DNA of 38,287 nt, taken from Thermoanaerobaculia bacterium. GTDB taxonomy: Bacteria; Acidobacteriota; Thermoanaerobaculia; Multivoradales; JAHEKO01. The notes beneath the pieces are model-generated. The model saw only the letters and a program-made list of their open reading frames with translations. It searched no databases and had not been told where the DNA came from. Positions 1 to 25,534 of this stretch are shown here, piece after piece. Position 1 is the first letter of the stretch. The number at the start of each line of letters is the position of its first letter. A program made the position numbers and the translations under genes. Location: the NCBI GenBank assembly GCA_945787575.1, contig CALZKB010000030.1, positions 1-38,287 of the forward strand. Reading direction: 5' to 3'.

Positions 1-10
1 GCTGGCAGGC

Positions 11-3000
11 GTGCTGCTAGGCGTTGCCCTGATGCTGGTGGCTGCACCCGTCGTGGCCCAGCCGGGGGAGACCATAACGACACCATCAGTCGTCCCAGAG
101 CTTCCGATTGAAGTCGAAACGGAGGTCGGGCCGGCCGGGTCTCTGAAGATCGTCCCGCTGTGGAAGGAGACCCTCGAGCTGCTGGAAGACCCGCACGCCT
201 ACACCTGCCCACCGGACGACCCGCTGACGTTGCATTTTGACGAGAGCAGCGAGTGCGTCGCCACGACCAAGCGCCGTCCGTTCTTCAATCCCGTGACGGG
301 AGCAGAGGGAGACACGATGCCTCCTCTCAGGGTCTTCAATGCGTGCTTCAACGTGCTCACGGGCCAACCTCTGCGCATGCGCCCGGACGAGGAGATCGAC
401 TGGAACCAGCCCGGTTTCCTGTTCGATCCCGACGAGGTCGTGCCGGTTACGCCAGCCTCTCAAACAGGTGGCATCGAGAGCAACATCCCCACCCAGCTGC
501 GGACACCCATCGGCGCGCTGGTGGCCTGCCCGGCACCAGGGTTGGTCGCGGATCCGTGCTCAGGCGCTGACGACGGGTCGCTTGTCGTCAACAATCCACC
601 CGATGCCGTGGATCGAGCTTTCTACGGGTTCGGAGGCGCCATTTCGGATAATCGCATCCCGCCGCATGGGACCGTGATTGCCGAACCGGCCTGCAACGAA
701 TTCGGAGAGCTGCTCGAAGACGGCGTCGTCGTCGAGGAGCTCGAACAGCCGGTCAACGAAACCCATTTCATCAAGGACAGGCTTGCCGCGGAGACCTTGG
801 GCAAAGCCCTATTCTGGGACATGCAGGTGGGGAGCGATGGCGTCCAGGCCTGCGGCTCGTGCCACTTCCACGCCGGCGCCGACAGCCGGACCCGGAACCA
901 GCTCAACCCCAATACCCTGGGAGGTGATCTGGCACTGGAGGTCAGGGGAGCTCTCACTCCCCAGAATACGAATGACATCGATGTGGTGGCCGCGGACTTC
1001 CCCTTCCACAAGAGGGTGAACCCGGACTTCGTCGGCGACGGCTTCGATCCAGCGATTCTCGTGAGCGACTCCAACGACGTCATGTCCTCCATGGGCGTCA
1101 GCAGATTCGCGCAGTTCGTTGACGTGGTCGTCGGGGGTCCGGCCTTCGGTCCGGCCGTCATGGGGGTGGCCCCCCTACTGCCGGATGCGGGTGCGCCTCT
1201 TCCCGATCCGATTCCGGTCATGCAGGGCAACCGGAGGATCGAGCCCCGCAACACGCCGACCATGCACGCAGCAGCGTTCAATTTCGACAATTTCTGGGAC
1301 GGGCGCGCCCGCCACGATTTCAACGGCGGTAGCGTCTTTGGCGCGTCGGACCCGTTCTTCCATGTCTGGGTGAGTTGTGTGGGACAGGGGGGGGCCAGGC
1401 TCCGCGAGCTGGCGGCGCCACTGGAGGCGGAGCTCGAGCCGGGTCCCAGGCCGCTCTGCGACTGGACCGAGGAGGGCGGCAACTACCTGGGAGTCAACGA
1501 GGGTGAGGAGCCGGTACCGGTGAGAATCCGCTTCTCGAGCCTGGCTTCCCAGGCGGTGGGGCCGCCCCTGAGCGATTTCGAGATGGCCTTCGCCGGGCGC
1601 AACTGGCCGAAGATCGGCAAGAAACTGTTGCAGGGCGGCGTGGTGCCGCTAGCCAACCAGCTGGTGGATCCCACCGACAGCCGGCTCGGACCCTGGTCCA
1701 ACCAGGGTGGGTCGAATTGTGCAACTGCGGATGCAATTGCCGCATTCGGGGCGCCGGCGGTTGGCAAGCCGGGCCTCTGCACCAGATACACGTCTCTGAT
1801 CCGCTCGGCCTTCAGAAACGAGCTCTGGAACAACTCCAACCGGCATCTCAATGGCATATCGGTGCCGATGAACAACAACTGCGATCCGGGTGACGAGATC
1901 CATGAACTGGGGATCACAGCCACGTGCGACCCGTTCGATGGCTATGTCCTCGACAGAGACGTGGCCAACGGTCCGGCGACTCCGTCGGACACCAACAAGT
2001 TTCGGCAGATCGCGGCCAACTTCGCCCTGTTCTTCGGACTGTCGGTACAGGCCTACGAGCAGCTGCTGATCCCCGACGACACGCCGTGGGACAAGTTCAA
2101 TGATCTGTATCCGATGCTGGGCAACGGCGTCGCCCAGCCCGGCGAGCAGGGGACTCTGCATCCGAGCGAAGTCCGCGCGGGCGTCACCGGGAGCCCCACC
2201 GAGTCTCTCGATGTGTCGTTGGTCGAGGGAATCGATGACGATGTCATTTTCGGATTCGACATTTTCGCCGGGGGCAACCTGACGGCCGCACTGCCGATCA
2301 CTAGCGCGAGGAATCCGCCCACGGATCAATTCCCGCTCGGCGTCGGCTCGAATCCCTTCTTGCGGAGCGCGCGCTGCATGCTCTGCCACCTCGGGCCCGA
2401 GCAGTCGGACCACACCAACAACGTGAACGCCGGGCTGCTGCAGTCCGGTACCGAACAGGAGTTTCCATTCCCGCAAGGAGCCCCTGAGCCCACCGGCGTG
2501 CTGCGACTCGTCACGGGCTTCAGCCTCGCCGAAGAGCTTGAGGAGAATGCCCAGGACGGCGTCGAAGTCGAGAATCGGAATTTCAATATCTTCGTTGACG
2601 ACCCCATCATCCCTATCCCGGCAGGCTGCACGCCAGAGCCCGGGTTCCCCAATGGCACGGATTGCCAGGCGCCTCAACACGCGGCCATCGCCCGGAACAG
2701 CGGCACCGCCTTCCAGGACAATGGCATCTACAACATCGGTCTTCGACCCACGACCGATGATGAGCTGCGCGGCGGAGATGATCCCTTCGGCTTCCCGCTG
2801 GCACTCTCGGCCCTGGCCCTGAAGAACCTGGGTGGGGAGGCTTTCGAGCCCTGTGACACCGAGACCGAGGCGCTGGCGGACCCGGCGAGCTGCAATCTGC
2901 CCAACTTCGATCCGGCTCTGGGCGTTGGCGGCGGGCTGTATGAGATGGTCGGCGATTGCCTCAATTGTGACTTCGAGGGTACGGGCTACTTCCAGGAGTC

Positions 3001-4033
3001 GATCAACCCGGGTCTGCAATTGGAGCCGGCCGACCCACAGCTGCCCGAGTACCTGGCGGAGTGGGCCAACAACCTGCCGGCCGGCGAGGCAAATCCGCTC
3101 ATCGACGAGCTGGCTTTCGCGCCCAACACCATCACTCCGACCGGGGTGAACGAGTACACTGAGATCCTGTTCGGCGCCGACATCCACTGTGGCGTTTTCG
3201 ATCCCGGTACGTTCGGTGCGGGACCGCCCAACTTCGGCTGGGGGCCGCTCTGTCCGAACAGCCAGACGGGTGTGCCGACCAACATGGGGCTGGGCAGCGG
3301 GCCATATGTTCCGGGCAGCCTGGTGGCGCCGCCCAATGGCACATGGGGCACGACACCGTTCCCCAACCGCGTGGCCAGAAACGGCGCCGCGAAGGTACCG
3401 CAGCTGCGCAACGTGGAGCTTACGGGCCCCTACTTCCACACCGGCAGCTATCTGACGCTGCGCCAGGTCGTCGACTTCTACGTTCGCGGCGGCGACTTCC
3501 CCGTGACGAACCAGGAGGACCGGGATCCGAATCTGACCAATCTGACCGTGCAGGCATTCAGCTTCGGCTCGACCACCCAGCTCGTGGATCTGTTCCTGGA
3601 TGGCATTCCGGATACCGTTTCACAGTATGGCCCATTCCCGGACACCTTCCCGCCCGGTTGTGAGGGAGCCGCTCCGAATTGCACAGCGGAACCTGCAGTT
3701 GGTGGTCGAGAGGATGCCTTGGAGGATGCCAAAGCATCGCTTGTGAAGTTTCTGCTCGCCTTGACCGACGAGCGGGTGGCGCACCGCTCCGCGCCCTTCG
3801 ACCAGCCCGAGATCTTCGTGCCCATCGATGGCACAGCGCCGGAGAACACCGGCGGCCGCGCGCAGCTGGTTACTCTGTCCAGTACCCAATGCTCGGCTGC
3901 TGCACCTGTCTGCTTCCAGCAGATCCCGCCGACCGGCGCCACGGGCCAGGCGACTCGGTTGCCCGCCTTCTTGGGAGTCACCGATAACCCCGCGGCCGAC
4001 TGCGCCACTGAGATGAGTCAGTTCTGTCGCTGA
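11..4033 (+). CDS. very large MauG / di-haem cytochrome c peroxidase-like protein (5' end uncertain)
   Basis: Predicted exported di-haem c protein of the MauG/bacterial cytochrome c peroxidase superfamily. Two CXXCH haem motifs are visible: CGSCH at residues 281-285 and CMLCH at 789-793. An FWDGRA segment lies near residue 428, and a C-terminal LRNVELTGPYFHTGS-type block (about 1130-1165) is typical of the family, where it precedes the last helix. The family reduces peroxide or oxidises protein partners in the periplasm; the substrate here is unknown. At 1340 residues it is far longer than classical members (about 320-470), with long Cys-containing insertions between the haem motifs. A CXXC-Asp sequence (CLNCD, 983-987) looks like a haem motif lacking its His. 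The frame is open to base 2 and the GTG at 11 gives a signal-peptide core with no basic N-region, so the true start may lie upstream. GC looks lower than in the right part of the window. Confidence 0.85.
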   Translation: MLLGVALMLVAAPVVAQPGETITTPSVVPELPIEVETEVGPAGSLKIVPLWKETLELLEDPHAYTCPPDDPLTLHFDESSECVATTKRRPFFNPVTGAEGDTMPPLRVFNACFNVLTGQPLRMRPDEEIDWNQPGFLFDPDEVVPVTPASQTGGIESNIPTQLRTPIGALVACPAPGLVADPCSGADDGSLVVNNPPDAVDRAFYGFGGAISDNRIPPHGTVIAEPACNEFGELLEDGVVVEELEQPVNETHFIKDRLAAETLGKALFWDMQVGSDGVQACGSCHFHAGADSRTRNQLNPNTLGGDLALEVRGALTPQNTNDIDVVAADFPFHKRVNPDFVGDGFDPAILVSDSNDVMSSMGVSRFAQFVDVVVGGPAFGPAVMGVAPLLPDAGAPLPDPIPVMQGNRRIEPRNTPTMHAAAFNFDNFWDGRARHDFNGGSVFGASDPFFHVWVSCVGQGGARLRELAAPLEAELEPGPRPLCDWTEEGGNYLGVNEGEEPVPVRIRFSSLASQAVGPPLSDFEMAFAGRNWPKIGKKLLQGGVVPLANQLVDPTDSRLGPWSNQGGSNCATADAIAAFGAPAVGKPGLCTRYTSLIRSAFRNELWNNSNRHLNGISVPMNNNCDPGDEIHELGITATCDPFDGYVLDRDVANGPATPSDTNKFRQIAANFALFFGLSVQAYEQLLIPDDTPWDKFNDLYPMLGNGVAQPGEQGTLHPSEVRAGVTGSPTESLDVSLVEGIDDDVIFGFDIFAGGNLTAALPITSARNPPTDQFPLGVGSNPFLRSARCMLCHLGPEQSDHTNNVNAGLLQSGTEQEFPFPQGAPEPTGVLRLVTGFSLAEELEENAQDGVEVENRNFNIFVDDPIIPIPAGCTPEPGFPNGTDCQAPQHAAIARNSGTAFQDNGIYNIGLRPTTDDELRGGDDPFGFPLALSALALKNLGGEAFEPCDTETEALADPASCNLPNFDPALGVGGGLYEMVGDCLNCDFEGTGYFQESINPGLQLEPADPQLPEYLAEWANNLPAGEANPLIDELAFAPNTITPTGVNEYTEILFGADIHCGVFDPGTFGAGPPNFGWGPLCPNSQTGVPTNMGLGSGPYVPGSLVAPPNGTWGTTPFPNRVARNGAAKVPQLRNVELTGPYFHTGSYLTLRQVVDFYVRGGDFPVTNQEDRDPNLTNLTVQAFSFGSTTQLVDLFLDGIPDTVSQYGPFPDTFPPGCEGAAPNCTAEPAVGGREDALEDAKASLVKFLLALTDERVAHRSAPFDQPEIFVPIDGTAPENTGGRAQLVTLSSTQCSAAAPVCFQQIPPTGATGQATRLPAFLGVTDNPAADCATEMSQFCR

Positions 4034-4060
4034 TCCGAAAGCCTGCCCGCGCATCACGAC

Positions 4061-4087
4061 GCCCATCCCCTCGTCCTGGGGATGGGC
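4061..4087 (+). terminator. stem-loop after the MauG-like gene
   Basis: A perfect 10-bp stem (GCCCATCCCC at 4061-4070 with GGGGATGGGC at 4078-4087) closes a 7-nt loop. Outer CACGA/TCGTG arms flank it across a small internal loop. It lies 28 nt after the stop codon of the upstream gene. There is no U-tract, so it is either a weak intrinsic terminator or a 3'-end-protecting hairpin. Confidence 0.55.
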
Positions 4088-4160
4088 ATGCTCGTGACTC
4101 GGAGAACAAATGGGGGCTGAGCCCTTGAGAGAGCCGAGAACCACCGGCAATCTCGACCCA

Positions 4161-4733
4161 ATGCGCCGCCGGAAACACGCTTGCCAAGCCCTGACCTGTT
4201 CCTTCTTGATCCTGGTGCTGGCCGGTTGCTGCGCGTTGTCCGCGGATGGCGGGGTCGTCCCGGCCGCCGAGAGCGAAGAGCCGGCCAAGGCCACCGGCGC
4301 TGAGCCGCAGGGGCCGGCGAGTCTCGCGAATCCGGCCGGCGCAGCTCTCGCCGGGATCAAGGTGTACTTCAAGCTGGATCCCGAGCTCACCCGCGGCCTC
4401 TACCTGGGGGATCGCTGGGTTTCGCCAAGGACCTATACCAGCGTTCTGCAGCCAGGAAAGCAGGCTACCGTAGAGGCCAGAACAGAGGGGCAGGATGCCC
4501 GGGGGAGGCGACTCATAAGGTACCTCAGCGCGGAATGGCTGCCTGCGGATCCCGACATGGTGACGGTCTCGCCCGGTCCAGGCAATGAGGTGAGGATCAT
4601 CGTTCATCACGCCGGCGAGTCTGCCGTGGAGGTCAAATCCGGAGAGATCTCCACAACACTCAGCATCAGAGCGACATACCGGGACCAGGCGAACAGGACG
4701 CAGGTCGCGATATCACGAGAAGATCGGCACTAG
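4161..4733 (+). CDS. putative lipoprotein of unknown function
   Basis: A 190-residue exported protein. I chose the ATG at 4161 because it gives a basic N-terminus (MRRRKH), a hydrophobic core and a lipobox LAGC with a second Cys following, which indicates a lipid-anchored protein. An in-frame upstream ATG at 4110 would add 17 hydrophilic residues before the signal peptide and is less likely. The mature part has a linker rich in Ala, Pro and Glu (to about residue 70). A beta-rich region follows with FKLDPELTR, YLGDRWVSP and PADPDMVTVSP segments and a closing LSIRATY strand, suggesting one Ig-like fold (bacterial Ig-like style). I recognise this only as a conserved hypothetical type and cannot assign a role. 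It follows the MauG-like gene on the same strand after a stem-loop, so co-transcription is uncertain. Confidence 0.65.
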   Translation: MRRRKHACQALTCSFLILVLAGCCALSADGGVVPAAESEEPAKATGAEPQGPASLANPAGAALAGIKVYFKLDPELTRGLYLGDRWVSPRTYTSVLQPGKQATVEARTEGQDARGRRLIRYLSAEWLPADPDMVTVSPGPGNEVRIIVHHAGESAVEVKSGEISTTLSIRATYRDQANRTQVAISREDRH

Positions 4734-4885
4734 CCTCCCGCGAATCTCTACTCGAGCTGCCGGCCCGGTCCTCAAGGCCCGCATCGCGATCCCGAAGCAG
4801 GTGGCGCGGTGTCGTTTCCCCAAGGGAATGCCTGCACGATCTGGCGAGCCGTCCACTCTCTGCCGTGGTGCTCAACTCCAGGGTT

Positions 4886-4916
4886 TTGGCGAAGGACAGC
4901 CCGGTTACGGTACGCT
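4886..4916 (+). promoter_or_regulatory. weak sigma-70-like promoter candidate
   Basis: TTGGCG (4886-4891) and TACGCT (4911-4916) are separated by 19 nt, upstream of the truncated gene at 4962. Both boxes are imperfect and the spacing is long, so this is tentative. The rest of the 228-nt stretch between 4734 and 4961 shows nothing recognisable. Confidence 0.25.
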
Positions 4917-4961
4917 GTCGGCGCTCGAGCTGATCGCGCCTCAGCGGAGTGGGAGAAGTCA

Positions 4962-5270
4962 GTGACCGCCAATCCGAAGCGACGATGGGTATTCGTGGCA
5001 ACCCTCGTAGGCGCTTGCGGTCTCGGTATCGGCTTCGCTGCCGAGATCGAGGTCTCGGTGGCCTTGCTCGGGGCTCGCGCTGCCGAAGGGCCGGCTGAGA
5101 TCACCCTCGTCGCCGAGCCGATGGAAAGCGACGCGCCGGCTGCGGTGGAATACCCGGTGAGTCGTGGCCTGTCGATGCTCGATCTCCCGCCGGACGGCCG
5201 CTGGCGGCTGCGAGCTCAGGCTCTCATTCTAATGGTGGAGCCGATCGGGATCGAACCGACGACCTCCTGA
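4962..5270 (+). pseudogene. N-terminal fragment of an exported carboxypeptidase-regulatory-like protein, cut at tRNA-Ala
   Basis: The GTG at 4962 follows a GGGAGAAG ribosome-binding sequence at a good distance. It starts a peptide with a basic N-region (NPKRRW), a hydrophobic segment and an FAAE cleavage-like site. About 60 residues follow (EIEVSVALLG... to DGRWRLRAQA) that resemble the first strands of the carboxypeptidase-regulatory/Ig-like exported proteins seen elsewhere in this window, such as the N-terminus of the 1362-aa protein at 15658. Such proteins normally continue for hundreds of residues. Here the reading frame runs directly into the opposite-strand tRNA-Ala gene, and its last residues (MVEPIGIEPTTS) are simply the antisense of the tRNA. 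I read it as a gene remnant truncated at the tRNA. It could instead be a spurious ORF, but the RBS plus signal peptide argue for a real 5' end. Confidence 0.5.
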
Positions 5271-5308
5271 ATGCCATTCAGGCGCTCTCCCAACTGAGCT
5301 ACGGCCCC
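5233..5308 (-). tRNA. tRNA-Ala (GGC anticodon)
   Basis: A 76-nt cloverleaf on the minus strand with an encoded CCA end (5233-5235). The acceptor stem GGGGCCG pairs with CGGCTCC and contains the G3:U70 wobble that is the classic alanine identity element. The D-arm (AGCTCAGTTGGGAGAGC), the anticodon stem-loop (CTGAATGGCATTCAG, anticodon GGC) and the T-arm containing GGTTCGATCCC are all present. It is preceded by its own promoter and a leader hairpin, and followed by a truncated reading frame on the other strand. Confidence 0.97.
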
Positions 5309-5312
5309 ATTT

Positions 5313-5328
5313 CCCCACTGGCGTGGGG
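5313..5328 (-). other. hairpin in the pre-tRNA-Ala 5' leader
   Basis: CCCCAC (5313-5318) and GTGGGG (5323-5328) form a 6-bp stem with a 4-nt loop. With the promoter at 5335-5364 the predicted transcript starts near 5328, so this hairpin would be almost the whole 5' leader ahead of the mature tRNA (first base 5308). It could influence RNase P processing or simply insulate the tRNA fold. There is no U-tract, so it is unlikely to be the hflX terminator. Confidence 0.4.
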
Positions 5329-5334
5329 ACCGGG

Positions 5335-5364
5335 AGTCTAGCCGTCGGCTTTTCAGCCTGTCAA
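5335..5364 (-). promoter_or_regulatory. sigma-70 promoter of tRNA-Ala
   Basis: On the minus strand a perfect -35 TTGACA (5364-5359) and a -10 TAGACT (5340-5335) are separated by 18 nt, a few bases before the tRNA. The hflX stop at 5380 lies just upstream, so the tRNA has its own promoter rather than depending on hflX transcription. Confidence 0.7.
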
Positions 5365-5379: not shown

Positions 5380-6489
5380 TCAGCCGGCCGCTCGCTGGGC
5401 ATCGCCGGTCCTCGAAAAGCGCTCTTTGAGTGCCTCGTCGAGGGCGTCGAGGCCGGCGCCGGTGACGGCCGACAGCGGCAGGCCGTCGCTGGTCGGTAGG
5501 CCGTCGGGAAGGGCGTCGATCTTGTTGTAGACGACGAGGATCTGGCCATCGTCGACGCCGATGTCGGCGAGCACTTCGCGCCCGACTTCGAGGTGCTCGC
5601 GCCACTGCGGATGGCTGCGGTCCACGACGTGGAGGACGAGGTCGGCCTCGCGGATGCCGGCCAGGGTGCTGCGGAAGGAGGCGACGAGATGGTGCGGGAG
5701 CTTGCGGATGAAGCCGACGGTGTCGGCGTAGACGACCGGCGAGCCGTCGGAGAGCACGGTTCTCCGGAGGCGCGCGTCGAGGGTGGCGAACAGGCGGTCC
5801 TCGGCGAGCACCTTGGCCTTGGTGAGGCGGTTGAACAGCGTCGACTTGCCGGCGTTGGTGTAGCCCGCCAAGGCGATGACGGTGGCCTGGCGCCGGCGGC
5901 GGCTCTGTACCTTGCGGGTCTTCTCGATCTTCTTGAGCTCGCGCTCGAGTTGAGAGATCTGGCGACGCAGAATCCGGCGGTCGGCCTCGAGCTGGGTCTC
6001 ACCCTCTCCGCCACGGACCCCGATGCCGCCGACCTGGCGCGAAAGATGGGTCCACCGCCGGGTGAGCCGCGGCAGCAGGTACTGGAGCCGCGCGAGCTCG
6101 ACCTGGGTGCGGGCCTCGCGGCTCTCGGCGCGCTGCTGGAAGATCTCGAGAATCAGACCGCTGCGGTCGAGCACCTGACAGTCGACGATGTCTTCGAGCT
6201 TGCTCACCTGGCCGCCGGAAAGATCGTCGTCGAAGATCAGCAGATCCGCCTTGGCGGTGGAAGCGGCGGCGGCGAGCTCTTCCGCCTTGCCGGACCCGAT
6301 GAAGGTCCGGGGATGGGGCGCCTTGCGGCTCTGCACGGCGCGGGCGACGACCTCGACCCCGGCGCTGCGGGTGAGCTCCGCCAGCTCGTCGAGATGCTCT
6401 TCGACGACACCGGGCGGCTGGTCCGGCAGGCTCAAGCCGACCAGAAGCGCGCGCCGGGGAGCGGCGGCGGAATCAGAAGTGGAATGCAA
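5380..6489 (-). CDS. hflX: GTPase HflX, ribosome-associated
   Basis: HflX is a ribosome-binding GTPase that splits stalled or hibernating 70S/50S particles, notably after heat stress. Visible features in order: the N-terminal HflX domain with an RTFIGSGKAEEL block and FDDDLSG; a long basic coiled region (RRILRRQISQLERELKKIE type) after GVRGGEGETQLE; then the G domain with G1 GYTNAGKST (residues 209-217 from the chosen start), G3 DTVGF, G4 NKID and G5 SAVTG. The recognisable protein begins only after the stop region of the upstream barrel gene. The only start codon there is TTG at 6489 (LHSTSDSAAAPRR...), overlapping that gene by 17 nt. An ATG at 6600 would add a shadow of the upstream gene. 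The product is about 369 aa, within family range. The start is the least certain part. Confidence 0.93.
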   Translation of the reverse strand: MHSTSDSAAAPRRALLVGLSLPDQPPGVVEEHLDELAELTRSAGVEVVARAVQSRKAPHPRTFIGSGKAEELAAAASTAKADLLIFDDDLSGGQVSKLEDIVDCQVLDRSGLILEIFQQRAESREARTQVELARLQYLLPRLTRRWTHLSRQVGGIGVRGGEGETQLEADRRILRRQISQLERELKKIEKTRKVQSRRRRQATVIALAGYTNAGKSTLFNRLTKAKVLAEDRLFATLDARLRRTVLSDGSPVVYADTVGFIRKLPHHLVASFRSTLAGIREADLVLHVVDRSHPQWREHLEVGREVLADIGVDDGQILVVYNKIDALPDGLPTSDGLPLSAVTGAGLDALDEALKERFSRTGDAQRAAG

Positions 6490-7021
6490 GTCCGGCGTGG
6501 GCGGTCCCCAGGACGCGCATGTCGTCCGAGTCGAGAATGTGGCCGACGAGCTCGGCCATGAAGACGAAGTTGGGAGTGATCTTGAACTCACCGGTCGCAC
6601 CGATGACGAGGCCGAGCACCGATTCCGAGTCTCGGGGAGCGAGGAGTCCTTCGGCCAGGATCCGCCGGCTCTCGAGATCGTAGAAACCGAGGCCGAGAAA
6701 GACCCCCGAATCGTAGAAGCTCTCGGGAAACTGGTACTCGCCTCCGACGTTGACGTAGGTGATGGTGCCGTCGGTCACCGCCCCCGGGGCGGTGCCGGTC
6801 TCGAAGTCGAGTTGCCCGGCGTGCAGCCAGATATTCGCCTGCGGCTCGGACTGGACGCCAAAGCCGACCTGGAAGCCAGGCTCGGCGGCGCCGCTCTCAC
6901 TCAAGGCGGTGCCGATGCCGCCCATGAAACTGAGCGTCCAGGTGTAGTCCTGCGCCGCGGCGGGGTTCCCGGCGACGAGCGCCACGGCGAGGGTGGCGAG
7001 CAGAATCGAATTGCGCTTCAA
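6473..7021 (-). CDS. small outer-membrane beta-barrel protein
   Basis: A 182-aa predicted outer-membrane barrel. The TTG start at 7021 is chosen because an AGAGGAGG ribosome-binding site lies just upstream and it begins a clean signal peptide (KRNSILLATLAVALVAG, cleavage after PAAA). The mature part alternates short amphipathic strands with turns, has Gly-rich strand starts (SFMGGIG, NVGGEYQF, FLGLGFYDL) and ends in LAFHF, a C-terminal Phe typical of BAM substrates. The size suits an 8-stranded OmpW/OmpA-barrel-like fold. No specific function is recognised. It is first in a minus-strand pair with hflX, overlapping it by 17 nt, and has a TATACT -10 element 23-28 nt upstream of its start. The reading frame stays open for several hundred bases further upstream, but that part is antisense to comF and is not real. 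Confidence 0.75.
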   Translation of the reverse strand: MKRNSILLATLAVALVAGNPAAAQDYTWTLSFMGGIGTALSESGAAEPGFQVGFGVQSEPQANIWLHAGQLDFETGTAPGAVTDGTITYVNVGGEYQFPESFYDSGVFLGLGFYDLESRRILAEGLLAPRDSESVLGLVIGATGEFKITPNFVFMAELVGHILDSDDMRVLGTAHAGLAFHF

Positions 7022-7043
7022 GAATCCTCCTCTCACGGCCGCG

Positions 7044-7049
7044 AGTATA
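7044..7049 (-). promoter_or_regulatory. -10 element TATACT for the barrel-hflX pair
   Basis: The minus strand carries TATACT ending at 7044, predicting a transcript start near 7037 and a leader of about 16 nt with a strong RBS. No convincing -35 box sits at 16-18 nt spacing (only CAATAG/TCAATA), so the call rests on the -10 match and position. Confidence 0.4.
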
Positions 7050-7138
7050 GCGTCCGCGCTTGCGTCTATTGAGGCGTGGCCCGACGCCACTAAACGAACC
7101 TCCACAGTTCTTACACACCATTGGTACGGATCGGAGCG

Positions 7139-7912
7139 ATGGGCATCACACGCGGTTTGCTGAAGAGTGCACTCGACTGGCTGTTGCCACCTCTGTGCTT
7201 GGGCTGCCGGCGCTCCCCGAGCGACGGCATCGACCTCCTGAATCTGTGCCGGCGCTGCCGGGAGCGGTGCCGGCCGCTGGCCGGCCGGCGCTGCCCGGGC
7301 TGCTTGCTTCGGATCGAGGACGGTTCGGCCGGAGCCGGTTTTCCATGTGGAGCTTGCCGGCGGCGACCACCTAGCTACGAGCGGGTGCTTGCCGGTTGGG
7401 CCTACGAGGCTCCGTTCGAGGCGGTAGTCGTCGGGCTCAAGTTCCAGCGCCTCCTGCACCTGGGAGAGGCGCTCGGCGCCGAGCTCGCCGTCCGCTACCG
7501 GGCGGAGCTCGCTGGAATCACCACAATCGTGCCCGTGCCGCTGCATCCCTGGCGCTCGTTGCGCCGCGGCTACAACCAGGCCGGGGTGATCGCCGACGGG
7601 ATCGCTCGAGGGCTCGATCTGCCCGTGACTGCAGCTCTCGGGAGGTCCCGCAGTACGGCGCCGCAGACCGGCCTCGACCGCCGCCAACGCCGAGCCAACC
7701 TGCGGGGCGCCTTCAAGGCGCGCCGGCGCGCCGTCACCGCCCTGGCGCAGGGCGGCCCCGAGGTGCACTGGCTTGTCGTCGACGACGTATTCACGACCGG
7801 CGCTACCCTCGAGAGCGCCGCCGGTGCCTTGCGCCGTCTCGGCGTTCCGCGGATCTCGGCGTTGGTCGCCGCCTACCGTCCCCATCCGCGGCGGCCGCCG
7901 GTGCGTACGTAA
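7139..7912 (+). CDS. comF: ComF family phosphoribosyltransferase-like protein
   Basis: A ComF-type protein, related to competence ComF and GntX. The N-terminal zinc-binding region has four CxxC pairs (C20/C23, C37/C40, C52/C55, C70/C73 counted from the ATG at 7139). It is followed by a type I phosphoribosyltransferase fold with VPVPLHPWR, RRGYNQA, RSTAPQTGLDRRQRRAN and the PRPP-binding loop VVDDVFTTGAT near the C-terminus. In known competence systems ComF assists uptake or processing of transforming DNA; a role here is assumed by family only, since no other com gene is in view. The length (257 aa) is normal. An in-frame TTG at 7121 would add six residues; the ATG at 7139 has GGAG close upstream but with short spacing. 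It stands alone, divergent from the barrel gene. Confidence 0.88.
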   Translation: MGITRGLLKSALDWLLPPLCLGCRRSPSDGIDLLNLCRRCRERCRPLAGRRCPGCLLRIEDGSAGAGFPCGACRRRPPSYERVLAGWAYEAPFEAVVVGLKFQRLLHLGEALGAELAVRYRAELAGITTIVPVPLHPWRSLRRGYNQAGVIADGIARGLDLPVTAALGRSRSTAPQTGLDRRQRRANLRGAFKARRRAVTALAQGGPEVHWLVVDDVFTTGATLESAAGALRRLGVPRISALVAAYRPHPRRPPVRT

Positions 7913-8031
7913 GGGGCAGGAATACGGTCCCGGGAGCCGGGGTTGCAGTTAAAGAAGCGCTGCTCAGCTCTGGGGAATAGGGTAATCCAGAGGCTGGACT
8001 GGTCAGCGAGCTCTCCGCGATTGTGTGGTTT

Positions 8032-8061
8032 TTGACACCCGTCAACAGCGCGCCGTATACT
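8032..8061 (+). promoter_or_regulatory. strong sigma-70 promoter for the outer-membrane protein gene
   Basis: A perfect -35 TTGACA (8032-8037) and a near-perfect -10 TATACT (8056-8061) are separated by 18 nt. The predicted start near 8068 leaves only about 13 nt of leader, containing the AGGGGAG ribosome-binding site (8070-8076) before the ATG at 8081. It is the best promoter in the window and shares its 18-nt spacing with the tRNA-Ala promoter. Confidence 0.75.
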
Positions 8062-8080
8062 GCCAAGTTAGGGGAGTAGA

Positions 8081-9949
8081 ATGCGAAACCGTACCCTAAG
8101 GCTCCTGACCGGAGCTCTCGTCGCTGCGGTGATCGCCAGCGCTCCGCTGGCCGCCCACGAGAACGGGTTCGTCTCCGGCCAGGTGCGCGCCGAGTCGGCG
8201 CCGTTGCCTGACAGTCAGGTCTACGCCTATCAGCTGGCAGATCTCAGCCTGCGCAAGGTCGTGGCGGACGCCGAGGGCCGCTTTTCCTTCGCCAACCTGC
8301 CCGCCGGGCTGTACAAGATCGTCGCTTTCAAACCCGGCTTCATTCCGGGCGTCGCCCTGCTCACCCGCGCGAGCGCCCAGGCCGCCCAATTCCTCGAAGT
8401 GGAGCTCCGGACCAGCGCTGCGGACTCCGCTTCCGACTTTTGGTCGGTGCGCAAACAGGTCCCCACCGACGTCCTGCGCGACATCGACCTGATGATGGCG
8501 GAGCGCGAGGGGGGCGCCGCAACACCGAGGATCGACCGCCTCTCCGCGCGGATGAGAACGGTCACCGGCGTCGATTCGCTGGCCACCGCTCAGACGGCTC
8601 AACTCTCCGGTGGAGCGCTCGACGTGGCGGGCGAGATCGAGAATGTCAACGTCGACGTCCAGGGGCACTTCGTCTCGCTCGAGTCGAGCACCCCCGGGGT
8701 CGACGTGAGCGCCGAAGGGCACACTCAGGCGCTTTCGGTCGACGTCTCCGGGGTCGGCTCGAGCCGCATCCAGATGACCTCGATCGACAACCGGCTGCGG
8801 ACCGATCTGAGCCGGGACGGAAAGATCGGCCTCCAGAGTCATCGGCTCTCCTGGTCCCGCGACGTCGGCCGCGCCGGTGAGTCGAGTCTCGCCGCGCAGT
8901 ACACCGAAGAGGACAACTTCTACGCCGGCGTCGGTAGCGCCAGCCTCCTGGGGCTGCCGAGCGGCAGCCGGACGTGGAACCTCGAAGGCAACAACACGGC
9001 TCCGATCGGCGAGCGCTCGCGGGTTGAGGCTGGATTCCACTACCGCGACCGTGACGTCGATCTCGTCGATTCCGAGTGGGTCGAGTTCCTGCCGGCCGAG
9101 CGAGTCGAGATCTTCGGCCGCGCCGGAACCACCGTCCACCCATCGGTCCTCGTCGAGTACGGCGTCTACTCCACCATGCGCGACGGAACGGTTTCGCTCA
9201 TGCCGCAAGGTGGGGTCGTGCTGCAGCTCGGTGATGCGTGGCGGGCGGCGACCTCGGCCAGCCTCAAGGTCCACGACGACCCCCTCGAGGCGCGGCGTCT
9301 CAACGACTTCCATACCGGGTACTTCCGCGACTACGCCTCCTGCGAGAGGGCCGCGGCCGAGTGCTATCAGATGATCCTCTCCCGCTTCGACGAGAACGAG
9401 GAGAAGCTCTCGATCGGGGCGATCCACCGCCGCTTCGACGAGTCGCTCCGGCTGCACTTCGACGAGAACTTCTTCAATTACCGCGAGAATCTGCAGCTGG
9501 TTCATGGCGACGCCGTTCCCGAGCTGCAGTTTGCGATGTCGCAGCGGCTGACACCCAACGTCCGGACGAAGCTGCAGTCGAACCTGGGACAGGGGGGTGG
9601 CGGTACGCTGGTGCTGGCCGACGGCGACAGCCCCTACGAGAACCGAGTGAGGTATCTCGTGACCTCCGTCGACACTCAGTTCGAACAGTCCGCAACCGGA
9701 GTGTTCGTCGCCTTCCATCACCTGCGGCAGCGACTGGATCCACTCGAGGACCAGCCGCGCAAGGAGCTGATGGAGCTCGAACGGCTGCAGCTGATGTTGA
9801 CCCAGGATCTGGGCGTCTTGAGCACCCTGGCCTCGAACTGGGCCGTGCAGCTCAACATGGAGCTCTCACGCGGCTCGCTGCCGAGCGTCCAGATGGAGTT
9901 GGACGAGCTCCGCAGCCGGATAACCGGCGGCCTGGCCGTCAAGTTCTAG
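8081..9949 (+). CDS. outer-membrane protein with N-terminal carboxypeptidase-regulatory-like domain
   Basis: A 622-aa exported protein. The signal peptide spans residues 1-25 (RNRTLRLLTG... cleavage around LAAHE). It is followed by one carboxypeptidase-regulatory-like beta-sandwich (about 30-110: FVSGQVRAESAPLPDSQVYAY, then DAEGRFSFANLPAGLYKIVAFKPGF), the domain often found ahead of TonB-dependent receptor barrels. A linker with a DSLATAQTAQLSGG segment leads into a long region of alternating amphipathic strands, and the chain ends GGLAVKF with C-terminal Phe. This suggests an outer-membrane barrel of perhaps 14-18 strands, smaller than a full TonB-dependent receptor, and no clear plug domain or TonB box is visible. 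Substrate unknown. Monocistronic by context: its own strong promoter and a stem-loop-rich region downstream. Confidence 0.75.
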   Translation: MRNRTLRLLTGALVAAVIASAPLAAHENGFVSGQVRAESAPLPDSQVYAYQLADLSLRKVVADAEGRFSFANLPAGLYKIVAFKPGFIPGVALLTRASAQAAQFLEVELRTSAADSASDFWSVRKQVPTDVLRDIDLMMAEREGGAATPRIDRLSARMRTVTGVDSLATAQTAQLSGGALDVAGEIENVNVDVQGHFVSLESSTPGVDVSAEGHTQALSVDVSGVGSSRIQMTSIDNRLRTDLSRDGKIGLQSHRLSWSRDVGRAGESSLAAQYTEEDNFYAGVGSASLLGLPSGSRTWNLEGNNTAPIGERSRVEAGFHYRDRDVDLVDSEWVEFLPAERVEIFGRAGTTVHPSVLVEYGVYSTMRDGTVSLMPQGGVVLQLGDAWRAATSASLKVHDDPLEARRLNDFHTGYFRDYASCERAAAECYQMILSRFDENEEKLSIGAIHRRFDESLRLHFDENFFNYRENLQLVHGDAVPELQFAMSQRLTPNVRTKLQSNLGQGGGGTLVLADGDSPYENRVRYLVTSVDTQFEQSATGVFVAFHHLRQRLDPLEDQPRKELMELERLQLMLTQDLGVLSTLASNWAVQLNMELSRGSLPSVQMELDELRSRITGGLAVKF

Positions 9950-9994
9950 GGCTGACGGAAAGCCTCCCGCGACGGTCCGCTCTCTGAAGAAGAC

Positions 9995-10013
9995 GCCGGC
10001 TACAGGTGCCGGT
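9995..10013 (+). repeat. intergenic stem-loop, family A copy 1
   Basis: GCCGGC-TACAGGT-GCCGGT: a 6-bp stem (one G-U pair) with a 7-nt loop. It belongs to a set of three in this window with the pattern GCCGGC, 7-nt loop NACRSGT, GCCGG (others at 10102-10124 and 14494-14514). The flanks (AGACGCC... and GTGC) also resemble the 14491 copy. Confidence 0.5.
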
Positions 10014-10033
10014 GCTGCCCGTTAGCGGGCGAG

Positions 10034-10060
10034 GTAGGCGCGGGACCTGCGCCCGCGCGA
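10034..10060 (+). repeat. intergenic repeat, family B copy 1
   Basis: GTAGGCGCGGGACCTGCGCC followed by CGCGCGA: an imperfect palindrome with a central GACC. Similar sequences lie at 38156-38182 (plus) and 25581-25606 (minus), always between genes. Confidence 0.4.
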
Positions 10061-10101
10061 CGGTCCGCCAGGGAAGCGGGCCGTGGACGATCCTCCTACG
10101 C

Positions 10102-10124
10102 CCGCCGGCGACGCGTGCCGGCGG
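10102..10124 (+). terminator. 8-bp stem-loop, family A copy 2
   Basis: CCGCCGGC (10102-10109) pairs perfectly with GCCGGCGG (10117-10124) around the 7-nt loop GACGCGT. No U-tract. It could end transcription or protect the 3' end of the outer-membrane protein mRNA. Confidence 0.45.
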
Positions 10125-10177
10125 CACGCCGGTGATCCGGACATTCGACGGACCGTTGAATCCAATTGTCGAGAACT

Positions 10178-10195
10178 GATCCAATTTTCTGGATC
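10178..10195. promoter_or_regulatory. inverted repeat GATCCA-N6-TGGATC, possible operator
   Basis: A perfect 6-bp dyad with a 6-nt spacer lies about 100 nt before the kinase start. The left arm overlaps an ATCCAATT direct repeat whose other copy is at 10160-10167. The arrangement fits binding of a dimeric regulator, perhaps the NtrC-type protein encoded downstream, but no sigma-54 -24/-12 element was found. Confidence 0.4.
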
Positions 10196-10296
10196 TTCAT
10201 GCTAAATTGCAGTCATAACATGCCTTTTCCGGCCCTTCAAAGCGATGATTCGTGGCATGAAACGTGCGTGTTGGTCCAAGGGAGTCGAAACCGACG

Positions 10297-13041
10297 ATGT
10301 CCGCGAGCAATCGCCGCCAGCTGTTCCTGATCGCCGCCGTTCTCGCGGCGCTGTGGGTGGCGGTCCTGGGCGCGGCAAGCCTCTATCGCAACATCGACCG
10401 GTTCCAGACGATCGGTGTGGCCGCCGAAGCGATCGGCGGCACCTGGCTGGTCGGCTCGGTCGAGGCCGCCGAGACCGGGCTCGAGGCCGGCGATCGCCTC
10501 GTCCTCGTCAACGGCAGCGAGGCGGCGACCCATCGGGAGCTGCGCGAGGCGCTGAGGAGTCGGCCGCAGAGCGAGCTGCTCATCGAGCGCGGCGGCGTCC
10601 CCACCCAGGTGCTCTACGAACGGCCGGCACTGGCGATCGACTGGCACTACTTGATTCTGGCGGTCATCGGAATCGGCTACCTGTTCATCGGCTTCTACAC
10701 CCTGTTGCGCGATCGCCAGCGAGCGGGGCGGCTGTTCTACCTCTGGTGCCTGACCTCCGGGCTGGTTTACCTCGCCTCGGCCCAGCCGCCGTTCGACGCC
10801 ACCGGCCGACTGATCTACATCTTCGAGGAGCTCGCCCGAGTCCTCCTGGCACCGCTGACTTTGCATCTGTTCTTGATCTTCCCACGCCCGGTGGCGAGCC
10901 TGCGCCAGCGGATCGGCTGGATTCCTTTCCTCTATCTGCCCGCCGCCGCCCTCGTCCTCGCCCAGGCCGACCTGATCTTGCTCGACGGCCGGCTCTTGAG
11001 CGGCGGCAACCTCGCCGGCGCGACCCGGATGCTCGATCAGCTGGTCCTCTTCCAGCTCGTCGCCTTCGCGCTCGCTTCGGCCGCGGTGCTTTTCGGAAGG
11101 CTCCGAAAGGGCCGCGACTCCGAACCGCTGCGGCAGGCGGTCTGGATCGCCGTCGGGCTGCTCGGCGGCTACCTGCCGTTCTTGGCTTTCTACCTGGTGC
11201 CTAGCGCTCTCCAGCTCCAATGGCCCGCGTTCTTGACCACCGTCGCGATCGCCCCGCTCGCCCTCGTCCCGCTGACCTTCGCCTACTCGATTCTGCGTTA
11301 CAAGCTGTGGGACATCGGGATCGTCATCCGCGACACCCTGTCGCTGGCGACGACCGTCTTGATCGGCGTTCTCGGCTTCTCGCTCGTCAACCTGCTGGTC
11401 GAGCGGGCGGTTCCCGAGACCGTCTTGCTGGGCCGGACTCTCCTCTCGTTCACCTCCGGGCTGATGATCGCCGGCCTGATGATCCCCACCCGGCGCCGAA
11501 TCGGCGCGTCGCTCGAGCGCCTCCAGTACGGTGGCGCCTTCCGCCACCGCCGGGGCCTCGTCGAGTTCGGACGCGAGATGCTCGAAGAGCGTGACCTCGA
11601 CCGGCTGTCCGAAGCGCTGCTCGGCGAGCTGGCAGCAACTTTCGACCTCGGGCGCGCCAATCTCTACCTCGCCGCCGATCAAGCCCTCCGGGCACAGCGC
11701 GAGGAAACCGGAATCCCCGCTACCCTGCCGAAGCAGGCGTTCGACGACGACTTCTGGCAGAGCGACGTGCGCAGCCTCTCGGGCGTCGGCCTCGCGACCG
11801 AGCGGACGCCCGCTCTCGAGCTCTACTCGTCGGGCTACCGATACGCCTTTCCGCTGACCTCCCGCCAGCGTCCCATCGGCGTCCTAGTGATCGGTTACAA
11901 ACAGGGAGACGCGGCGCTATCGAGCGACGACATCGATCTCGTCCGCAACTTCTTGAACCAGGTCTCGCTCGCCATCGACAACGCTCGCCTGATCAACCAG
12001 GTCCGCGAGCAGCTCGAAGTCGTCTCCAACCTCCAGGAGACCACGGAGGAGATCCTCGAGTCCTCCCCCGCCGGAATCGCGCTGGTCGCCGGCGACGGCA
12101 CGATCCAACGCGCCAACGCGGCGGTGGCCGAGCTCTTCGAGACCACTCCCGAGACGTTGGTCGGCCGCTCCCTCGCCAAGCTCCTCGGCGAAAGCGCCCT
12201 GCCGCAGGCCAAAGAAGGTCTGCGCGAGGTGCGCTGGGAGAGGCCTGGCGGTGGCGTGCACTACCTGCAGCTCAGCGTCGCCCCGCTCGCCACCGACGTG
12301 GAAGGCGCCTCGGTGGTGCTGATCAACGACGTGACCGAGCGCATGGCGATCGAGAACGCGCTCAAGGAGCGGGAGCGCCTCGCTTCGCTCGGGATGCTAG
12401 CCGCGGGCGTCGCCCACGAGGTCAATACTCCGATCACCGGCATCTCGAGCTACGCTCAGATGCTGCTCCAGAACACGCCGGCGGACGATCCCCGCCACGA
12501 GCTGCTGCGCAAAGTCGAGCGCCAAACGTTCCGAGCCTCGCGAATCGTCAACAACCTCCTCGAGTTCTCGCGTGCGAGCCCCCGTGAGCTGGGCCCGGTG
12601 TCGCTGAGCTTTGTCGTCGCGGAGTGCCTCAACCTCTTGAAGGAGCGGCTGCGGGACCGCCGGATCGAGCTCGAGTTCACGCCGCCGAGCGAGGAGATCA
12701 CGGTCCGCGGCAACGACGGCGAGCTTCTTCAGGTTTTCACCAATCTCGTCGTCAACGCGACCGACGCGATGGAGGACGGCGGCATCCTGCGGGTCGCCCT
12801 CGAGCTGTCGGACGACTCCGTCGAGGTGAGCGTCGCGGACACCGGTGAGGGGATCCCCGCCGAACAGCTCGATCAGATCTTCCAACCCTTCTTCTCGACC
12901 AAGCTGAGCGAGGGCGGCACCGGGCTCGGACTGTCGATCAGCTACAACATCGTGCAGCGTCACGGCGGGCATCTGCGGGTGGCCAGCAGCCCGGGCGAAG
13001 GCAGCACGTTTTTCGTCGAACTTCCACGCCACCAAGGTTAG
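10297..13041 (+). CDS. membrane sensor histidine kinase (PDZ-like, multi-TM, GAF, PAS, HisKA, HATPase)
   Basis: A 914-aa hybrid-sensing kinase. Order from the chosen ATG: TM helix (about 10-30); a periplasmic PDZ-like segment (45-115; EAAETGLEAGDRLVLVNGSE with a typical PDZ carboxylate-loop/turn pattern); several TM helices (about 115-410); GAF (430-580; LGRANLYLAADQ); PAS (585-690; ILESSPAGIALVAGDGTI); HisKA with phospho-acceptor His707 in GVAHEVNTP; and HATPase_c with N-box NATDAMEDGG, DTGEGIP and GTGLGLSI. It should autophosphorylate and pass phosphate to the NtrC-type regulator 12 nt downstream. The ATG at 10297 has AAGGGAG at 10278-10284; an in-frame GTG at 10264 would add eleven polar residues before the first TM helix. 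The PDZ-like part may read misfolded envelope proteins, but this is inference. Confidence 0.9.
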   Translation: MSASNRRQLFLIAAVLAALWVAVLGAASLYRNIDRFQTIGVAAEAIGGTWLVGSVEAAETGLEAGDRLVLVNGSEAATHRELREALRSRPQSELLIERGGVPTQVLYERPALAIDWHYLILAVIGIGYLFIGFYTLLRDRQRAGRLFYLWCLTSGLVYLASAQPPFDATGRLIYIFEELARVLLAPLTLHLFLIFPRPVASLRQRIGWIPFLYLPAAALVLAQADLILLDGRLLSGGNLAGATRMLDQLVLFQLVAFALASAAVLFGRLRKGRDSEPLRQAVWIAVGLLGGYLPFLAFYLVPSALQLQWPAFLTTVAIAPLALVPLTFAYSILRYKLWDIGIVIRDTLSLATTVLIGVLGFSLVNLLVERAVPETVLLGRTLLSFTSGLMIAGLMIPTRRRIGASLERLQYGGAFRHRRGLVEFGREMLEERDLDRLSEALLGELAATFDLGRANLYLAADQALRAQREETGIPATLPKQAFDDDFWQSDVRSLSGVGLATERTPALELYSSGYRYAFPLTSRQRPIGVLVIGYKQGDAALSSDDIDLVRNFLNQVSLAIDNARLINQVREQLEVVSNLQETTEEILESSPAGIALVAGDGTIQRANAAVAELFETTPETLVGRSLAKLLGESALPQAKEGLREVRWERPGGGVHYLQLSVAPLATDVEGASVVLINDVTERMAIENALKERERLASLGMLAAGVAHEVNTPITGISSYAQMLLQNTPADDPRHELLRKVERQTFRASRIVNNLLEFSRASPRELGPVSLSFVVAECLNLLKERLRDRRIELEFTPPSEEITVRGNDGELLQVFTNLVVNATDAMEDGGILRVALELSDDSVEVSVADTGEGIPAEQLDQIFQPFFSTKLSEGGTGLGLSISYNIVQRHGGHLRVASSPGEGSTFFVELPRHQG

Positions 13042-20602: not shown

Positions 20603-21858
20603 TGGATCGCTTCGAGATTACCGGTCCCACTCGCCTCGAGGGCACCGTGACGGCGGCCGGAGCCAAGAATGCGGCACTCCCGGCACTGGCGGCGTCGCTG
20701 CTTGCCGATGGCACCGTGACCCTCTCCGGCCTGCCGGTCGTCCAGGACATCCGAACGATGTCGCGCCTGCTGGAGCACCTCGGTACCGAGACTCGATGGG
20801 ACGGCGAGCGGTTGGCGCTCACACCGAGCGGGACGGCAGTCAAGGATGACGCCGACTACGACCTCGTCAAGACCATGCGGGCCTCGATCCTCGTCCTCGG
20901 ACCGTTGATCGCCCGCCTCGGCCACGCCAAGGTCTCGCTGCCGGGCGGGTGCGCCATCGGGGTGCGACCGATCGATCAACACCTTGCCGGCCTCGAGGCG
21001 CTCGGCGCCGAGGTCACTCTCGAGCACGGTTACGTCAGCGCCCGGGCGGACCGGCTCGTCGGCAACCGCTTTCGCTTCGCCGCGCGCACGGTGACCGGCA
21101 CCGAGAATCTGCTGATGGCGGCTTGCCTGGCGCGGGGAACGACGGTCCTCGAAAACTGCGCGTGCGAGCCGGAGGTCGTCGATCTCTCCCGCCTGCTCAC
21201 CTCAATGGGGGCACAGGTCCACGGCGCCGGCACCGAGCGCATCGAGATCCAGGGAGTCGACCGTCTCGGCAGCGCCGAGCATCGGGTGATCAGCGACCGG
21301 ATAGAGGGCGGAACCTACCTGATCGCCGCGGCGATCAGCGGCGGCGATGTTCGGCTCGCGGGAGCGCTGCCGGACGACCTCCGATCACTGCTGGACGTGC
21401 TCGAGGAGGTCGGCTGCCGGGTCGAGGCGGAGTGCTCCTCGATCCGGATCGCCGGCGGCGACGGCCTGCGGCCCTGCTCGATCGAGACCGCGCCGCATCC
21501 CGGTTTTCCCACCGATCTCCAGGCCCAGTACATGGCTCTCATGACCCAGGCCGAAGGGCGCTCCACCGTTCACGAGACGATCTTCGAGAACCGCTTCCAG
21601 CACGTTCCCGAGCTCAATCGCATGGGCGCCGCGATCCAGGTCGATGGCGGCCACGCTTGGATCGAGGGGCCGACGCCGCTGTCAGCCGCCAACGTGATGG
21701 CGACCGATCTGCGCGCATCGGCGAGTCTCGTTCTCGCCGGACTAGTGGCCGACGGCACCACCATAGTCGACCGCATCTATCACCTCGATCGCGGCTACGA
21801 GAGGATGGAAGAGAAGCTCAAGGCGCTGGGAGCCGACGTCGTGCGGGCGCAGGCATGA
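20602..21858 (+). CDS. murA: UDP-N-acetylglucosamine 1-carboxyvinyltransferase
   Basis: MurA transfers enolpyruvate from PEP to UDP-GlcNAc, the first committed step of peptidoglycan synthesis, in the cytoplasm. The start [16 protein letters not shown], with GAKNAALP containing the conserved Lys-Asn pair, is typical. The catalytic loop [13 protein letters not shown] carries Cys117 (E. coli Cys115), the residue alkylated by fosfomycin, so the enzyme is predicted fosfomycin-sensitive. At 418 aa the length is standard. The ATG at 20602 overlaps the prmC stop by one base and the gene overlaps the next one by four bases (ATGA), placing it in the middle of a coupled operon. The frame is open further upstream but that part is a shadow of prmC. 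Confidence 0.97.
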
Positions 21859-24838: not shown

Positions 24839-25534
24839 ATGTCCGGCACACTCTTCGTCGTTTCGACCCCGATCGGCAACGTCGCCGATCTCTCGCCGCG
24901 CGCCCGTGAGCTGCTCGCTCGAGCCGCCCTCATCGCCTGTGAGGACACCCGCCACACCGGGCGGCTGCTCGCCCGCTGCGGCATCGAAGCCCGGCTGTTG
25001 TCTCTCCACGAGCACAACGAGGCGGAGCGGGTGCCGGGACTCCTCGCCCGGCTCGAAGACGGTGACGACGTGGCGCTGGTGAGCGACGCCGGCACACCGT
25101 TGCTTGCCGACCCCGGCTTCCTGCTGGTCAGGGCGGCGGCCGCCGCCGGGATCGAGATCCAAGCGGTCCCCGGACCCTCGGCGATCCTCGCGGCGCTGGC
25201 GGTCTCCGGCCTGCCGCCGTATCCGTTCACCTTCGCGGGCTTCCCGCCGCGCAAACCGGGCAAGCGCGAGTCGTTCTTTCGGTGGCTCGGCGAGCTCGGT
25301 CACACCGCCGTCCTCTTCGAATCGCCTCATCGGCTCCCCGCGACCTTGGCGACCGCCGCGAAGGTCCTCGGTCCGAGGCCGGCGGTGCTCTGCCGGGAGC
25401 TCACCAAACTTCACGAGGAGACCCTCCGCGGCACCCTCCCCGAGATCGCGGCGGCGATCGGCGAACGAGCACGCGTCAAGGGGGAGCTGGTGTTGGTGAT
25501 CGGCAAGCCGGTCGAGACACCTTTCTTCGCCTGA
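24839..25534 (+). CDS. rsmI: 16S rRNA (cytidine-1402-2'-O)-methyltransferase
   Basis: RsmI methylates the ribose of C1402 in the decoding centre of 16S rRNA with SAM. The family signature is clear: TLFVVSTPIGNVADLSPRA at the N-terminus, CEDTRHTGRLL, SLHEHNE, LVSDAGTPLLADPGF, VPGPSAILAALAVSGL and FAGFPPRKPGKR, then CRELTKLHEET. At 231 aa it stops just after the catalytic core (GELVLVIG), shorter than E. coli RsmI (286 aa), lacking the small C-terminal domain; such short forms occur in the family. It is monocistronic by position and convergent with mnmA. Confidence 0.96.
   Translation: MSGTLFVVSTPIGNVADLSPRARELLARAALIACEDTRHTGRLLARCGIEARLLSLHEHNEAERVPGLLARLEDGDDVALVSDAGTPLLADPGFLLVRAAAAAGIEIQAVPGPSAILAALAVSGLPPYPFTFAGFPPRKPGKRESFFRWLGELGHTAVLFESPHRLPATLATAAKVLGPRPAVLCRELTKLHEETLRGTLPEIAAAIGERARVKGELVLVIGKPVETPFFA

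Follow-up and report, generated by a model that had tools for sequence, protein, structure and literature searches.

The window analysed here is a stretch of 38,287 nt that makes up the entire contig C30 of a draft assembly (G000) of a Thermoanaerobaculia bacterium; the assembly has 484 contigs and is estimated to be 97.54% complete with 1.66% contamination. The features around its tRNA-Ala(GGC) gene, from the first base to hflX, are as follows.

1..5219, no strand: left arm; dinucleotide signature atypical, synteny in relatives absent
11..4033, plus strand: di-haem MauG/cytochrome-c-peroxidase-like secreted protein, 1340 aa (CCP_MauG, two CxxCH)
4158..4733, plus strand: lipoprotein-like ORF, 191 aa (longer start at 4110; no confident family)
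4962..5219, plus strand: 5′ portion (about 86 codons) of what is probably a secreted-protein gene, with no stop codon of its own; the frame stays open to 5270 in the tRNA
5210..5220, no strand: approximate junction of the probably broken ORF and the tRNA flank, placed from the end of homology to a G023 protein (residue 83) and the reach of the flank similarity (5215)
5215..5232, minus strand: tRNA 3′ flank, 18 nt, resembling the attL-side flank of the GCAATCA-arm family (13/18, 13/18, 11/18 and 11/18)
5233..5308, minus strand: tRNA-Ala(GGC) (ARAGORN; CCA encoded), a target of integrative elements in relatives, where remnants are found
5380..6600, minus strand: hflX, the ancestral neighbour on the 5′ side of the tRNA (Pfam and relatives)

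The tRNA, the single one that ARAGORN detects in the window, lies where the sequence-only reading of this DNA had placed a boundary. Of 30 genomes (G000 counted), 26 have an hflX match at E 1e-60 or better, and the order hflX, then tRNA-Ala(GGC), recurs in 12 relatives: at a distance of at most 1.5 kb in seven (G006, G011, G015, G020, G021, G023 and G025) and of 3–10 kb, on the same strand, in five more (G003, G008, G013, G018 and G028). Given this recurrence, we rejected the idea that the tRNA was inserted into a gene. The same-genus genome G001 has no tRNA within the 0.7 kb examined after its hflX, a point against the decayed integration boundary proposed below. In the five relatives with the longer distance, 3–10 kb of other genes separate hflX from the tRNA (L060 at G003:C197 6200-9444, L057, L058, L063 and L064), on the other side of the tRNA from the known integrase elements; the interval in G003 holds an S46 peptidase and a toxin-antitoxin-like pair.

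To the left of the tRNA, the MauG-like gene starts right at the contig end (base 11). Of 59 genomes searched with it, the MauG-like gene matched, besides itself, one, with a partial match only. In a phylum sample of 396 genomes, with only two candidates scored per listed genome, the window's own protein was the sole match at E 1e-40.

The ORF that starts at GTG 4962 has GGGAGAAG just 5′ of the start and a signal-peptide-like N-terminus. Its start and its run into the antisense tRNA are as the sequence-only reading described them: no stop precedes the tRNA, and the frame terminates at 5270, within the antisense tRNA, as ...ALILMVEPIGIEPTTS followed by the stop. The C-terminal ‘MVEPIGIEPTTS’ is simply open frame reading into the antisense tRNA, and we propose no function for it. 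Between 4734 and 5232 this is the sole frame with a positive coding score and no stops. Pfam gave no match to the ORF; its closest relative is the N-terminus of a long CarboxypepD_reg-domain protein in G023 (35% over 68 aa), with homology that stops at residue 83. No full-length close homolog was found in the 59 relatives, where the matches outside the window were weak (best E 0.0037). The one candidate locus for a homolog on the contigs searched, L139, turned out to be a chance match inside a protein that we take, from its sequence, to be transporter-like. The ORF is likely, though not certainly, a broken gene; its assignment to a truncated carboxypeptidase-regulatory-type gene is only moderately supported, as the homology to the G023 protein is weak.

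The reference for composition was 272 kb of the same assembly (20 contigs), and that for GC3 was 191 genes (192 were called and one with N was left out). The shift at the tRNA had been argued from four 60-nt lines with 35, 34, 44 and 47 G+C. These counts are correct, but they were selected from overlapping distributions: left lines have a mean of 38.7 (SD 3.2, n = 87) and right lines of 40.9 (SD 3.5, n = 550), with 33 right lines at 35 or below and six left lines at 44 or above. The GC content of the left arm, 64.5%, is as low in 9% of 344 reference 5.2-kb windows. A left/right step of this size is ordinary, since 18% of 190 adjacent 5.2-kb reference pairs differ as much; we dropped it as proof of insertion. 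The shift does hold in the dinucleotide signature: delta* of 1-5219 is 0.124, higher than in any of the 172 reference windows from this genome (mean 0.042, maximum 0.111), that of 5380-10600 is 0.042, and the profile is back at normal values near 5 kb. The three ORFs of the left arm have GC3 values of 0.74–0.79, at the 2nd–9th percentile of the 191 genes. One of the 21 long native genes tested has a delta* of 0.126 alone, and the single odd 4-kb gene that dominates the left arm could contribute to its signature. A second, smaller atypical peak (0.120 in 2 kb) occupies 21001-23000 of the window.

Gene order gives a similar division. Right-arm genes recur beside hflX in relatives (the gene at 8081-9949, for example, in G001, G005, G007, G008, G012, G013 and G028); left-arm genes were found near hflX or the tRNA in none of 32 loci of relatives. 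The left arm thus has both foreign composition and absent synteny, as a tRNA-integrated island would. The boundary in composition and gene order is real, and it coincides with a tRNA that serves as an integration hotspot in relatives.

The hotspot emerged from a search with the tRNA in 72 genomes of the order. Unambiguous copies of 43–49 nt of the tRNA-Ala(GGC) 3′ part are present in nine of them (G003, G006, G011, G020, G021, G028, G038, G044 and G046), a count that leaves out G030, whose copy sits at a contig edge. Four genomes have all three parts, tRNA, integrase and remnant, on a single contig, in elements of 4.1 kb (G003), 12.2 kb (G020), 30.1 kb (G011) and 30.5 kb (G021) that share the order tRNA, cargo, integrase (towards the tRNA), remnant; the displaced remnant in intact elements is the 48-nt tRNA 3′ end. 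The integrase beside the remnant in G003 (C197) has the Pfam domains Arm-DNA-bind_3, Phage_int_SAM_3 and Phage_integrase. Its relatives in the order have 60–70% identity, and the G020 integrase is a distant one (34%). A remnant adjoins five of the 12 loci of close relatives, the rest being without one or cut by contig ends (C303 and C229); among more distant loci, G046 has an integrase of the G003 family beside a remnant. Direct repeats GCAATCAGATAGCAATCAG lie ∼50 nt after the tRNA in G015, G021 and G028 and in shorter form in G003, and were seen near six of nine integrases examined; such arm repeats are at both ends of the elements in relatives. The tRNA-integrase-remnant anatomy with arm repeats is that of the usual tyrosine-integrase attachment site. 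The tRNA-Ala(GGC) is thus an integration hotspot of tyrosine-integrase elements in this order, and both a recurrent insertion site and the integrase family that goes with it are identified.

Loci of this kind are well known. Tycheposons likewise carry cargo, sit at tRNA genes and have a tyrosine recombinase. Genomic islands that tyrosine integrases insert into tRNA genes are known as the Islander type (PMC4383910). Such islands have the same target, the tRNA 3′ part, which is regenerated, and a displaced fragment with a tyrosine integrase at the far end, as in the relatives; the window differs from them in having only the tRNA-side boundary, with no integrase or displaced fragment, so that the island is not delimited. 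The full Arm-DNA-bind_3/Phage_int_SAM_3/Phage_integrase domain set stands by the remnant in G003 C197, whereas the window has no member of this family; the assembly has two copies, both on foreign-looking contigs. Two other observations concern the same tRNA in relatives. Serine recombinase genes (PF07508) lie near it at L077 (G010:C424, 67-1593) and L052 (G020:C2, 11097-12143), suggesting a second element type there. In G011 (L050, C154, 1396-10600) a 2873-aa GH94/glucoamylase-type protein takes up the 9 kb that separate the tRNA from the first of two remnants downstream, possibly a tandem array.

We then set the 18-nt flank of the window tRNA against 35 others, taken next to full tRNAs or remnants, in a comparison devised post hoc whose rows are not all independent. 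The four best flanks, G015, G028, G003 and G021 (13, 13, 11 and 11 of 18), are exactly those with GCAATCA arm repeats. Among the other 31 flanks of this short, post hoc comparison the next best scored 9/18 and the remainder at most 7/18; flanks with other arm repeats (G002, G020 and G038) scored 5–6/18. Random window positions attain the four-flank scores in 0–0.06% of cases. Arm repeats, which stand at +49 to +51 in the four matching relatives, were not found beside the window tRNA. We read the 18 nt as a putative residual attL flank that would have lost its arm sites on fusion of the broken gene.

The flank could also owe its likeness to chance or to a conserved tRNA trailer, the left arm being the outcome of ordinary lineage-specific rearrangement or gene turnover by the tRNA. 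The looseness of hflX-tRNA synteny (3–10 kb between the two in G003, G008, G013, G018 and G028) and the unremarkable GC step would fit such an origin. It leaves out of account, however, that the top four of 35 flanks are those with GCAATCA arm repeats and that the left-arm signature is extreme, and we consider it improbable.

Searches for the other parts of an element were made in the left arm and the assembly. No displaced tRNA 3′ end was found in 1-5225, and the 3′-end pattern has three matches only in the whole assembly, all of them full tRNAs. Pfam detected no integrase among the left-arm ORFs submitted to it, and the assembly's PF00589 matches are all off this contig; the earlier statement that the window holds neither an integrase nor a duplicated tRNA end was therefore correct. 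The leftward extension of the contig that had been proposed met with a contig cut at base 1, whose first 400 bases overlap nothing else in the assembly, and with no displaced tRNA end in the assembly. A full, regenerated-type tRNA is present at one end, and an untouched tRNA would look identical. The lack of an integrase within 5.2 kb is unsurprising because known elements are 4–30 kb long and have their integrase at the end away from the tRNA; together with the cut at base 1, this leaves room for an intact element whose tRNA-proximal cargo is the left arm and whose integrase and displaced tRNA end lie past base 1. Such an element should nevertheless have the arm repeats that the window lacks, its remnant is nowhere in the assembly, and a gene broken at an element end would be unusual. 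We regard an intact element as improbable.

Two contigs of the same bin, C303 (1-6434, L005) and C229 (1-5709, L006), each open just before a tRNA-Ala(GGC) and close inside an integrase of the same family. The tRNA leader of C303 has about 30 nt identical to G011 and that of C229 is identical over all 23 nt to G006, both of genus g5; both tRNAs carry the other anticodon-stem pair, as compared with the window. The signature of C303 is foreign and that of C229 is not (85th percentile). On these grounds we did not retain them as two complete elements of this genome: they are probably contaminant contigs mis-binned from the related genus g5, and because they look mis-binned they are weak evidence for elements here. 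Contigs on which tRNA ends are repeated can bring mis-binned DNA into an assembly.

C30 itself might be an assembly chimera in which two organisms were joined at the conserved tRNA, the left arm coming from another species. The 76-nt tRNA is 100% identical in six relatives (G010, G020, G023, G032, G038 and G048), and contigs of relatives end at tRNA-Ala (G006 C71, G032 C384 and G041 C74). The left-arm signature departs from the rest of G000, and, to judge by C303 and C229, tRNA-Ala contigs of foreign origin can enter this bin. The contig does, however, span the tRNA, the estimated contamination is low (1.66%), and an ORF broken at the tRNA would still require integration or deletion in the other organism. 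A chimera seems to us unlikely, if less so than an intact element or ordinary gene turnover.

The best reading, and one that we hold to be just on the probable side, is a decayed integration boundary, where a later deletion would have joined an attL flank of element type to a broken gene. In this order, the tRNA-Ala(GGC) that follows hflX is a recurrent site of tyrosine-integrase elements. In intact cases, seen in relatives, the element is flanked by the full tRNA on one side and a displaced copy of 48 nt on the other, with the integrase beside the copy and facing the tRNA. What is established about such integrases leads one to expect crossover inside the 48 nt and regeneration of the tRNA. 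The left arm probably consists of DNA that was acquired at the tRNA site, as its signature, absent synteny and element-type flank suggest. A later deletion or rearrangement may have taken out the arm-type sites, and the same event may have fused the broken secreted-protein gene to about 13–18 nt from the tRNA 3′ end.

Insertion of the left 5.2 kb at the tRNA, the central proposal of the sequence-only reading, is thus favoured by the hotspot in the order, the foreign signature, the absent synteny and the attL-like flank; it gains nothing from the GC step, and neither an integrase nor a displaced tRNA end nor an arm repeat was found in the window. An insertion by an element of this type explains the left arm best but is not demonstrated, and the extent of the insert is not delimited because the contig ends at base 1. 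So read, the locus offers a concrete case of how acquired DNA may get fixed beside a tRNA. More speculatively, and with a good deal less confidence, the order may have a dedicated family of tRNA-Ala(GGC) cargo islands, the small ones with genes for one or a few very large proteins that are secreted or belong to the envelope; loss of the attL arm sites by deletion would freeze the cargo in place, and the window would be one such frozen case.

Elsewhere in the window, 21 of 23 nt at 24855-24877, close to the start of an ORF at 24839, equal tRNA positions 47-69, a likeness that is probably due to chance.
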